Below are positions 52,476 to 55,707 of a DNA stretch of 64,000 bases, in pieces (within the stretch, counting starts at the first letter, position 1; every line of letters starts with the position of its first letter). Source of the DNA: Candidatus Promineifilum breve (lineage in GTDB: Bacteria; Chloroflexota; Anaerolineae; Promineifilales; Promineifilaceae); NCBI RefSeq assembly GCF_900066015.1, contig NZ_LN890656.1, positions 1 to 64,000 on the forward strand. Direction: 5' to 3'. Under the pieces are notes generated by a model that saw only the letters and a list, made by a program, of their open reading frames with translations, made no database searches and was not told the DNA's origin. The position numbers and the translations under genes were made by a program.

Positions 52476-52605
52476 GAGGGACACAGAGGACACGGAGGAG
52501 TCACAGAGTTACACAGAGAAATTAGGACAACTCATCATTTACTCTGTGCTCTCTGTGACTCCTCTGTGTCCTCTGTGTCTCCTCTTTTCTCTCTGTGTTT
52601 TTCCC
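52476..52605. repeat. Inverted ACACAGAGG repeat block
   Basis: GACACAGAGGACACGGAGG units face CTCCTCTGTGTCCTCTGTG units. Separates divergent ppk2 and the slyD-like operon; nothing gene-like in the gap. Confidence 0.85.
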
Positions 52606-52628
52606 CAAAAAATAGTTAAAAATACCGT

Positions 52629-52657
52629 TTGACATCAGCTTGACACTTCGCTATAGT
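52629..52657 (+). promoter_or_regulatory. Strong sigma70-type promoter of the SlyD-RRM operon
   Basis: Consensus TTGACA at 52629-52634, 17 bases, TATAGT at 52652-52657. A second TTGACA at 52640-52645 has no -10 at proper spacing. Start expected near 52664. Confidence 0.75.
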
Positions 52658-52698
52658 AGATATTGACTGGTGTGAGTAGTTGCTCGGACGGGTACGTG

Positions 52699-52735
52699 GC
52701 CGCCAGGACTTATAAAAGTCGCAGGCGGCTTTTTT
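52699..52735 (+). terminator. Intrinsic terminator inside the SlyD leader
   Basis: GCCGCC 52699-52704 pairs with GGCGGC 52724-52729 and inner GACTT 52707-52711 with AAGTC 52716-52720, loop ATAA, followed by six Ts. It lies about 70 bases after the predicted start and 70 bases before the gene, so it should end a short RNA or act as an attenuator. Confidence 0.75.
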
Positions 52736-52805
52736 GTTAGGCCCCGACCGGCCCGGGCCGCGCAGGCCCATGATTTACCGGCAGCACACTGGGCTAGGAG
52801 ATTGT

Positions 52806-53315
52806 TTGACGAAGGAATTTGAGCAGGACTCCGCCGTAGCCGACGGCATGGTTGTCAGCCTGGCGTACACACTGCGCCTTGATGACGGTGAGGAAGTCGA
52901 TTCGGCCGCCAGCGACGACCCCCTTGTTTATTTGCACGGCGCCCAAAACATCATCCCCGGATTGGAGCAAGCCCTGACGGGCCTGAAGGTCGGCGACAAT
53001 CGCCGCGTCAGCGTCAATTCGGTCGATGCCTACGGCGACTTTGATGAAGAAGCGTTTGAGTTGGTGCCCTATGACGCCTTCCCGGCCGACGTCGACCTGG
53101 AAGAGGGCATGGGCCTACGGATGGTTGAGAGTGGCACGGGCCGCCAGGTGGAGGCCACGATTGCGGAACTGCGCGATGAGGGCGCGCTCCTCGATCTGAA
53201 TCACCCCCTGGCCGGAGAAACCCTGCACTTCGACGTTGCGATCGTTGGTTTACGCCGGGCGACAACGGATGAAATCGCCCACGGGCACGCCCATAGTGCC
53301 GATCACACACACTAG
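52806..53315 (+). CDS. SlyD-like FKBP peptidyl-prolyl isomerase
   Basis: 169 residues if started at TTG 52806, which has AGGAG five bases upstream; ATG 52848 is an alternative. VVSLAYTLRLDDGEEVDSAA, PLVYLHGAQNIIPGLEQALT and DNRRVSVNSVDAYGDFDEEA match SlyD, a fold with a chaperone insert (YDAFPADVDLEEGMGLRM). The end GHAHSADHTH is a short His-rich metal-binding tail. It folds proteins and can bind nickel. It sits behind a leader with its own terminator and before an RRM gene, probably one operon. Confidence 0.85.
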   Translation: MTKEFEQDSAVADGMVVSLAYTLRLDDGEEVDSAASDDPLVYLHGAQNIIPGLEQALTGLKVGDNRRVSVNSVDAYGDFDEEAFELVPYDAFPADVDLEEGMGLRMVESGTGRQVEATIAELRDEGALLDLNHPLAGETLHFDVAIVGLRRATTDEIAHGHAHSADHTH

Positions 53316-53342: not shown

Positions 53343-53735
53343 ATGAAAAAGCTTTACGTTGGTAACTTGCCGTTTGACACGGATGAAGAGCAGATTCGCG
53401 AACTGTTTTCCACCTATGGTGAGGTACGTTCGGTCGATATGATCAACGACCGCGACACGGGCCGTTTCCGCGGCTTCTGCTTCGTAGCGATGGACAACTC
53501 CGAGGCGGACGCGGCCACAGCGGCATTGAACGGGTATTCCTTCGGCGGTCGCCCGCTGAAGGTGAATGAGGCCAAGCCGCGCGAAGAGCGGCCGGCCGGC
53601 GCGGGCGGCGGCAATCGCGGTGGTTACGGTGGCAGTCGCCCCGATAACCGCGGCGGCGGCGGCGGCAATCGCGGCGGCTACAATCAGAATCGCGGCGGCG
53701 ATCGCGATCGCGACCGCGACCGGAATCGGTGGTAG
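53343..53735 (+). CDS. RRM RNA-binding protein with Gly/Arg-rich tail
   Basis: 130 residues. RNP2 LYVGNL and RNP1 RGFCFVAM are intact, with NDRDTGRFRG before RNP1, so single-stranded RNA binding is expected. Residues 85-130 are Gly/Arg/Asn repeats (GGGNRGGYGGSR, then DRDRDRDRNRW). These proteins are cold-induced RNA chaperones in cyanobacteria and relatives. GGAAG at 53338-53342 is the ribosome site. A terminator follows directly. Confidence 0.93.
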   Translation: MKKLYVGNLPFDTDEEQIRELFSTYGEVRSVDMINDRDTGRFRGFCFVAMDNSEADAATAALNGYSFGGRPLKVNEAKPREERPAGAGGGNRGGYGGSRPDNRGGGGGNRGGYNQNRGGDRDRDRDRNRW

Positions 53736-53771
53736 GATAAACTGTCAGACGGCGTAGACCATAGCATCCAG

Positions 53772-53809
53772 ACGGCGGTTGTCGGGTTTTCCGGCAGCCG
53801 CCGTTTTTT
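53772..53809 (+). terminator. Intrinsic terminator after the RRM gene
   Basis: ACGGCGG 53772-53778 pairs with CCGCCGT 53798-53804; the T-run is 53804-53809. Like the leader terminator at 52699, it is followed by GTTAGG. Confidence 0.8.
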
Positions 53810-53836
53810 GTTAGGGGCTGGCGTAGACCGCAATGA

Positions 53837-55690
53837 TTACGGCAGACAGTAATTGACCGCCACCTCATCGACGTACAGCCCCGTCACCCCACCCGTCCCA
53901 TTGTTGAACACCCCAAAATAGAGCGTCACCGCCTGGCCGCGGAAGGCGCTCAGATCGGCCGTGTGCTGCTGCCAGGCGCTATACCATTGGCGCTGGAAGA
54001 GCAGCACGTGCTGTTGACCGGCGCTGTCGAACAGCAGCACCATCTGCACGTCGTCGGTCAGTTGCGCCCGATCCAGCGGCGAGGTGGGCACGATGGCCGG
54101 CGGCGTCAGCTTGGCCCGCGTCCCGGTCGTCGTGGCGAAGAGCTGATAGCGCAACGTCACTGCCGCCGGCCCGGCGGGGATGGTGATCGTCTGCTGGGCC
54201 GATGAGTAGCTGTAGACGTTGTGCGGCGGGTGGACGATGCCCGCCCGCAAGGCCCGCGCCCCGCTGTAGACCGGGAAGGTGACGAAGCCGGCCGGGTAGA
54301 CCGTGTTGTTGATCTGCCAGGCGGCGTCACTCTCGAAGCCGCCGTTGGCGATCAGGTTGACGCAGCCGGGTGGGCGCGTGGGCGACGCCGTGGGCGTCGC
54401 GGTGGGCCAGGGCGTCGCGGTGGCCGGCGGGCGGGTAGGCGTCGCGGTCATTGGCGGGCGTGTGGGCGTGGACGACGCCGTGGGCGACGCCGTGGCCGTG
54501 GCGGTTGTTGTCGCTGTCGCCGTCGCCGTGGCCGTGGCCGTCGGCGTATTGGTCGGCGTGGGCGAAGGGGACGGGCCGTACATGAGCGCCGGCAGATAGA
54601 GCGGCCCGGCGGTGGGCGTCATCGTCGGCGTGGCCGTGGCGGTCGGCGTCATGGTGGGCGTGTCGCTGGCCGTCGCGGTGGCGGTGGCGGTCGGCGTGGT
54701 GGTCGTCGTCGGCGTGGCCGTCGTCGTCGGCGTGGCCGTGGGCGTGGGCGTATTGGTTGGCGTGGGCAGTGTGCCGGTGACGGTGGGCGTGGGCGTGGCG
54801 TCATCGGTGGCGGTGGCGGTGGGTGTGTCGGTTGCCGTGGCGGTCGGTGTGTCGGTTGCCGTGGCGGTCATTGTCGGCGTATCGGTCGGCGTAGACGTCG
54901 CGGTCGGCGTGGACGTCGCGGTCGGCGTGGACGTCGCGGTCGCCGTGGACGTCGCGGTCGGCGTGGGCGTCGCGGTTGGCGTGGACGTCGCGGTCGCCGT
55001 GGGCGTGGTGGTGGCGGTGGGCGAATGGGTCGGCGTGGGCGTGTTGGTCCTGGTCGGCGTGATGGTGGGCGTGCGGCTGGGCGTGGGCGTGCGGGTGGGG
55101 GTGGCCGTCGCCGTGGGGAACTGGTCCACCGAGACCGAGCCGTTGACGAAATCGCCGGCCACGACCATATCGTGGATGTCGGCGAAGAAGGGCGCGGGGG
55201 CGCTGAGGAAGTCGACGTCGCTGACCTGGAGTTCGGGAATCCAGGCCACGCCGAAATCGATGTCCAGCAGCCGGCCGGTGGGCAGCCGCTTATCCTCGGA
55301 ATCCTCGTTATAGATCAGCGTCTGGATGCGCCCTTCGTTGCTGACGATGGTGACATCAACCACGGCGCGATAGCCGGCGGGCAGATGGAACAGCAGGTCA
55401 TCGGGCACGCCGTCGCCGTCGTCGTCGTCGGGGTTGAGCATGAGCACCGTGGCGTCGTAGGCCAGCACGAAGAAGATGGTGTCGATGGCGTTGCCGCCGC
55501 TGACGAAATCGAGGGGCATGTTGACCCGGCCGCCGGCCACGGCCGGCACCATTTCGGCCGCCGTCAGGCTGGGCGCGGCATAGGGCGCGGCCAGCGCGCG
55601 GCCCGCTGTTGTGTCAATGGATGTCCCGTAAATCAGCCCCCCGATGAACGCGACCGCCAGAAAGAAGAAAATAGTTGCCCGTGCGGCCAT
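53837..55690 (-). CDS. Secreted protein with cohesin-like domain, Thr/Pro linker and C-terminal jelly-roll
   Basis: 617 residues from ATG 55690. Signal peptide or anchor helix at about 1-35. A cohesin-like beta domain at about 40-185 ([20 protein letters not shown], then [17 protein letters not shown]). Residues about 190-430 are a low-complexity Thr/Pro/Ala linker of TATPTPT type, with LYLPALMYG in the middle. The C-terminal 150 residues look like a carbohydrate-binding jelly-roll ([20 protein letters not shown], ends [12 protein letters not shown]). A cell-surface glycan-binding role is likely. A TATAAT box 11 bases upstream suggests a very short leader. Confidence 0.75.
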
Positions 55691-55701
55691 GATTAGGGCC
55701 A

Positions 55702-55707
55702 ATTATA
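55702..55707 (-). promoter_or_regulatory. -10 element close to the start codon
   Basis: Minus-strand TATAAT at 55707-55702, eleven bases before the ATG at 55690, so the leader would be about five bases. Confidence 0.45.

Follow-up and report, generated by a model that had tools for sequence, protein, structure and literature searches.

A class-wide conserved leader, and candidate transcription attenuator, ahead of cold-shock-type genes in Candidatus Promineifilum breve and its relatives

In Candidatus Promineifilum breve, the DNA between a sigma-70-type promoter and an operon for a SlyD-type prolyl isomerase and an RRM protein has the features of a cis-acting leader of a cold-shock-type operon. 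We think it fairly probable that this leader represents a class-wide transcription attenuator, and that RNA which reads through its terminator refolds by a long-range pairing, P1. Comparison among genomes establishes the element, its predicted terminator stem and P1; we infer termination itself, and a rise in read-through when RNA-chaperone capacity is needed, as in the cold. The window, by which we mean the whole stretch of 64,000 nucleotides that was analysed, is positions 1-64,000 of NZ_LN890656.1 (assembly GCF_900066015.1; own genome, label G000). The features concerned are these.

52629..52657, + strand: sigma-70-type promoter, TTGACA-17-TATAGT (sequence, scan, conservation)
52664..52735, + strand: predicted short (terminated) leader RNA, about 72 nt (placed from the -10 position and the U tract)
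52667..52674, + strand: P1 5' arm, CTGGTGTG (identical in 6/6 congeners; class-wide swap test)
52672..52677, + strand: leader arm GTGAGT (class consensus GUAAGU), overlapping the P1 arm by 3 nt (alignment, pairing tests)
52680..52688, + strand: conserved segment TTGCTCGGA (class consensus CUGUUUCGGA; alignments A2 and A4)
52698..52735, + strand: predicted intrinsic terminator hairpin and U6 tract (fold z -3.19, stem covariation)
52708..52713, + strand: ACTTAT, 5' apical side of the terminator, complementary to the leader arm GTGAGT (alignment, pairing tests)
52785..52792, + strand: P1 3' arm, CACACTGG, 3 nt 5' of the Shine-Dalgarno sequence (congener alignment)
52796..52800, + strand: Shine-Dalgarno sequence AGGAG (sequence)
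52806..53315, + strand: gene for a SlyD-type FKBP prolyl isomerase, TTG start, 169 aa (Pfam FKBP_C, E 9.4e-13)
53343..53735, + strand: gene for a single-RRM RNA-binding protein with a Gly/Arg-rich tail, 130 aa (Pfam RRM_1, E 5.2e-23)
53770..53811, + strand: operon terminator (scan)

The promoter named in the original prediction is present, with TTGACA at 52629-52634, a spacer of 17 nt and TATAGT at 52652-52657, both in the sequence and in a scan. By consensus alone it is close to chance expectation (1 seen vs 1.4 expected in a 6-kb scan). TTGACA together with TATAGT or TATATT is kept in 6/6 aligned congeners, and of the 61 class-wide copies whose upstream DNA is long enough to judge, 57 have a sigma-70-type promoter directly 5'; in base-shuffled controls the rate is 3.4%. 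A second promoter 3' of 52735 had been named as a finding that would count against the proposal, and the scan shows no promoter-like site 3' of the leader terminator. As read from the sequence, the terminator sits between promoter and slyD on one predicted transcript, which is the placement of an attenuator. The claims made for the genes agree with what we find: the operon encodes a folding helper and an RRM protein, as the Pfam matches above indicate, and the start at 52806, 5 nt 3' of AGGAG, aligns with a TTG start in 6/6 congeners. The Shine-Dalgarno sequence itself is AGGAG in five of the six and CAGAG in G002.

Within the genus, slyD was found in six of eight genomes, own included; the two that lack it are 71% and 68% complete. 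The region upstream of slyD can be aligned in all six congeners, and promoter, leader, terminator, P1 arms and TTG start are kept in every one of them. TGACTGGTGTG lies directly 3' of the expected RNA start in the six, which also have in common the arrangement GGCCGCC..ACTTA..GGCGG followed by a U tract. The post-terminator stretch is poorly conserved, except for a block beside the Shine-Dalgarno sequence. When relatives were searched with the DNA, matches better than E 0.02 were confined to the genus, and outside it there were weak matches only (best E 0.022).

A terminator ending at 52735 had likewise been claimed, and folding, conservation and covariation all speak for it. Its outer stem (GGCCGCC/GGCGGCU) and apical stem (GACUU/AAGUC) are followed by U6; this GC-rich hairpin directly before a U-rich tract has the form of an intrinsic terminator. 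The segment 52664-52740 folds at -31.3 kcal/mol (z -3.19), with 1 of 200 shuffles as good; extended to 52830, the stretch is of ordinary stability (z -1.19, 27/200 shuffles as good). A simple terminator scan did not return the 52735 hairpin, and it was assessed by folding and conservation. All six congeners retain the hairpin and the U tract. Across the 71 rows of alignment A4, all 12 stem pairs have changed on both sides, and 87.2% of terminator cells are paired, against 79.8% in shuffled alignments and 43-46% when slid by one column; at least five T occur in an 8-base window at the element end in 62/62 copies ahead of cold-type genes. By these comparative measures, the predicted terminator stem covaries across the class. 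A further claim, that leader and operon terminators have a T6-GTTAGG border in common, is true of the window; the border is not conserved in the other five congeners and is probably a coincidence.

The element extends well beyond the genus. Upstream of slyD in other genera, and of csp genes that precede slyD, many loci follow the same plan, namely a promoter, GUAAGU with a UUCUGUUUCGGA-like stretch, a spacer, a terminator that has ACUUAC close to its loop, and a start codon; the plan is absent in other loci read by eye, such as most of L107-L163. Relatives with names among the closest matches are mostly Anaerolineae and other Chloroflexi records. A covariance model, R1, made from 21 sequences with 8 terminator pairs, matches 88 of 298 class genomes at E up to 0.05, and also matches the window at 52663-52736, a copy which is itself one of the 21 building sequences. 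In the own genome this site is the sole strong match (E 3.6e-9; the next has E 0.11).

Gene context was judged for the best 71 R1 places, all with E up to 0.0029, by means of short protein patterns and, in five cases (L172, L208, L210, L233, L234), by eye. Two places have no downstream DNA (L213 and L216, the former still a row of A4). Among the 69 that could be judged, 62 lie directly 5' of a gene for a cold-shock-domain protein (48), a SlyD-type protein (13) or an RRM protein (1). The other seven, in L217, L221, L223, L226, L228 and L229 and at a second place in L231, are not before cold-type genes and look like chance terminators. Eleven of the 62 copies are R1 seed sequences; when the seeds are left out, 51 of 58 places precede cold-type genes (46 csp, 4 slyD, 1 rrm). 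Because R1 contains no coding sequence, gene context is an independent check for these 51 non-seed copies. A conserved leader before cold-shock-type genes across the class strongly supports the attenuator-type layout that the window alone had suggested. With a second model, R2, 10 of 400 phylum genomes were matched at E up to 0.001; all ten, own genome and genus included, belong to the window's own class, whose share of the 400 is not given, and the element was seen in sampled genomes of one class only.

Individual loci depart from this picture in various ways. L105 has two leader copies (559-632 and 1122-1194), apparently one per csp gene. The csp gene of the own genome (L244:1290-1425; G000:C1 near 1400520) has no R1 match, and its leader differs, with a promoter-like TTGACC..TATGAT, a stem CCGTAGC..GCTACGG and then a hairpin AAAGCACCATTTCC..GGAATGGTGCTTT. 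The slyD leaders of L097 (Thermoflexus) and L052 have another hairpin, whose loop CCGTAAGCC could pair with an upstream GGGGCTT.

The gene context also bears on what might act on the leader. Autoregulation by an RRM protein that binds it, which had been put forward from the window, would suit the RRM gene of the window operon and the 24 copies, out of 62, that have an RRM pattern in the 1.1 kb downstream (for three of the 62, the stretch was under 1 kb). However, 38 of the 62 have no RRM pattern in the examined stretch (shorter than 1 kb in two of them) and 48 precede a cold-shock-domain gene. As a general rule the idea is not supported, an RRM protein alone is on these counts an unlikely general regulator, and we regard RRM autoregulation of the leader as highly improbable. 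A search for a conserved leader in related RRM operons had also been proposed. Across the class, the leader was found before csp and slyD genes and before one rrm gene; at the 24 RRM loci outside the genus (L060-L083), no copy was recognised by eye in the 260 nt upstream. One of these loci, L082, sits behind a csp gene that carries one element copy (L227). The RRM genes of the 24 loci start with TTG in 20 cases, ATG in two and GTG in two, and this start codon, conserved and rare as it is, may be a point of control in its own right. In the pairs L060/L061 and L063/L064, RRM loci of different genomes have a near-identical upstream stretch, in which no terminator was seen.

A riboswitch, in which a small ligand at the conserved CUGUUUCGGA region controls termination or translation, would account for conserved bases lying between paired parts and for a terminator that resembles an expression platform. 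It is nevertheless very unlikely: the first genes of the 62 copies encode RNA chaperones or a prolyl isomerase, with no evident shared metabolite, and there is no Rfam riboswitch match at the window leader. In Rfam searches, the whole window gave no match at gathering score and the window leader a single, chance-level match (E 0.41).

P1 is a long-range pairing across the terminator. In the window RNA, CUGGUGUG (52667-52674) can pair with CACACUGG (52785-52792). Within the genus the 5' arm is invariant and changes are confined to the 3' side, where the arm reads CACACTGG in G000, G002 and G007, CACACCGG in G003 and G004, and TGCACCAG in G005; each of the three versions can form 8 pairs with CTGGTGTG, G-U included, and in 6/6 congeners the arm ends 3 nt before the Shine-Dalgarno position. 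Across the class, a column-based count was given up because MAFFT put the 3' arms out of register. The first 16 leader nt were paired with their own or with swapped downstream segments at 57 recognised places, 40 of them non-redundant. Native pairings averaged -11.9 kcal/mol, against -9.2 kcal/mol for swapped ones (40 loci; z -7.7, 0/20000). When each of 22 families contributed a single locus (30 draws), z had a median of -5.57, and in none of the draws did any of 2000 permutations reach the native value; a control leader segment gave a median z of +0.9. It is the first 40 nt 3' of the element that carry the signal (z -8.1; beyond them, z -1.65), and control segments at leader positions 17-36 and 29-44 gave z -2.3 and +0.4. 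The window copy, redundant with that of congener G003, was left out of these 40-locus tests and of the 48-locus tests below. On this comparative evidence, we take P1 to be firm across the class.

Energy gives a different view of P1 in the window. In folds ending at 52805, 52810 or 52830, from 10 to 50 C, its in-register probability is about 0.01-0.24, and among the best folds at 25, 37 and 50 C only those of the longest stretch contain it. Shorter stretches at those temperatures favour CUGGU 52667-52671 with GCUAG 52793-52797, which touches the Shine-Dalgarno sequence, and at 10 C the competitor is a hairpin inside the leader. Since P1 is mostly not favoured by window energy, the case for it in the window is conservation.

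These results can be set against the alternative that an ordinary partial terminator sets a fixed low expression and that the leader is conserved only as promoter plus terminator, without regulation. Promoter and terminator are indeed the most conserved parts, the window hairpin is very stable and P1 is not energetically favoured in most window folds. Such an arrangement would, however, need neither a conserved leader between promoter and hairpin nor a conserved long-range P1, and we judge it unlikely. P1 can form only with the polymerase past the terminator, and its conservation therefore points to read-through RNA that is produced and has a role. It is distinctly unlikely, in our estimation, that the terminated RNA of about 72 nt is instead a functional small RNA that acts in trans by pairing, close to the ribosome binding site, with the P1 3' arm on its own or a sister mRNA. 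The P1 5' arm does lie inside the terminated RNA, with its partner 3 nt from the Shine-Dalgarno sequence in 6/6 congeners, but each locus's leader is specifically complementary to its own downstream segment, and cis pairing is favoured by the presence of both arms on a single read-through RNA. An RNA of about 70 bases could still arise as a by-product or product.

A second pairing may link the leader arm to the terminator loop. In 48 of the 71 A4 rows, leader positions 1-21 pair with the apical terminator better than expected (z -3.67, 5/20000), two controls being near 0. In fixed columns, 80.3% are paired vs 77.5% when shuffled (0/500), and the number of pairs changed on both sides is not unusual, 83 of 500 shuffles being as high; swapped rows give z 2.9 (91/20000). 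With one locus per family, for which a family label was available in 67 of 71 A4 rows, the median z is -2.1, with p up to 0.15. Forcing the pairing in the window gives -18.2 kcal/mol, against -31.3 kcal/mol, and the leader-apical pairing is compatible with the lower terminator stem. We conclude that the leader-loop pairing is probably conserved, though weaker than P1. In nascent-length folds to 52723, the leader's partner at 10 and 25 C is the apical segment 52708-52714. When the temperature is set to 37 or 50 C, CGCCAG 52701-52706 on the terminator 5' side takes that place and is paired with CUGGUG 52667-52672; the CGCCAG sequence is not kept in G002, G004 and G007. These modelled, temperature-dependent pairings are hints only.

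Taken as an attenuator, the leader might work as follows. RNA would start near 52664; many polymerases would stop at 52735 and free an RNA of about 72 nt, and a fraction would read through. Read-through RNA would then refold, 52667-52674 pairing with 52785-52792 and enclosing the terminator hairpin and the CUGUUUCGGA-type segment. The leader strand would have two partners, as the pairing of GUGAGU 52672-52677 with ACUUAU 52708-52713 overlaps the P1 arm. Since P1 requires read-through, it can have no part in deciding termination; the only means of tuning this step would be those present once the polymerase is at 52735, namely leader, terminator and bound factors. Read-through may rise in the cold if the terminator is hindered by Csp or RRM chaperones, proteins of the types encoded in these operons; alternatively, the leader-loop pairing may last longer in the cold. 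Cold- or chaperone-dependent attenuation with P1 refolding is favoured because the operons make Csp and RRM RNA-binding proteins and a prolyl isomerase, because E. coli Csps can lower termination and because an RRM protein of Synechocystis, Rbp1, is tied to cold adaptability. The trigger would be cold, Csp or RRM, and a temperature or RNA-chaperone response seems the most natural one. We advance tentatively, as possible rather than probable, a two-step cold-shock switch in an RNA family unmatched in Rfam 15: the 5' strand would first touch the terminator loop, biasing termination, and after read-through would swap to the partner beside the ribosome binding site and set translation, while sister mRNAs could be further targets, in trans, of the 72-nt RNA set free at the terminator.

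To our knowledge, cold-shock control by leader RNA has been worked out in detail in few bacteria, and the E. coli cspA leader has no intrinsic terminator. The cspA mRNA is described as a thermosensor, a structured cold-shock mRNA with temperature-dependent folding (PMC9947658, PMC6386945). Window-type leaders precede the same kind of gene, but the window leader has no match to the cspA thermosensor model (RF01766) at E up to 5. Of ten csp loci compared with RF01766, nine gave matches, all short of the gathering score of 78 bits (the best reached 62); these matches span 288-423 bases and include the csp coding region. In accounts of E. coli, CspA, CspC, CspE and CspD can lower intrinsic termination, and metY-rpsO is given as a case of Csp-dependent antitermination (Bae et al., 2000, as told in PMC9765468, PMC4347634, PMC11648934). 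A hairpin-U-tract terminator is common to both systems, and here it stands before csp genes; however, the E. coli terminator lies in other operons, whereas ours would be the conserved leader of the chaperone operon itself. In the TRAP, PyrR and Bgl/Sac attenuators, as reviewed in PMC4347634, a leader terminator is combined with an alternative leader-strand pairing. The window leader also has a terminator and an alternative leader-strand partner, but the best supported such partner lies 3' of the terminator. Among RRM systems, Rbp1 is reported to be required for cold adaptability in Synechocystis (PMC9333190), and the Chlorobi-RRM motif (RF01697) is listed as a candidate RNA motif of another phylum, named after RRM genes (PMC2864571). 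Covariance-model search gave no match to the latter in the whole window at gathering score and none at 52550-52900 at E up to 5. The accessible Anaerolineae and Chloroflexi literature on cold shock, leaders, terminators, attenuators and RNA motifs, largely outside the subscription journals, yielded no description of the element, and we regard it as a new family among leaders of an established type, the cold-shock leader or attenuator.

If this is true, a poorly studied class gains a defined cold-shock regulon of csp, slyD and rrm genes, and Csp antitermination, shown on other E. coli operons, would be tied to the chaperones' own genes. The proposal predicts that the RNA has two 3' ends, that compensatory mutations in P1 achieve rescue and that read-through depends on chaperones.

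Three further observations concern DNA outside the leader. Between ppk2 and the promoter, 52480-52579 holds a near-perfect inverted repeat of 29 nt (97% complementary), and this palindrome is a dispersed repeat with 78 matches over the two strands of the own genome at E up to 1e-5. On the - strand, 53837-55702 is a long open frame whose middle has extended Thr/Pro/Ala-rich repeats of the TPTATATPT type. At L198:1023-1220, downstream of csp and rrm patterns, there is a match to the Moco (molybdenum/tungsten) riboswitch, at 59 bits against a cut-off of 36.
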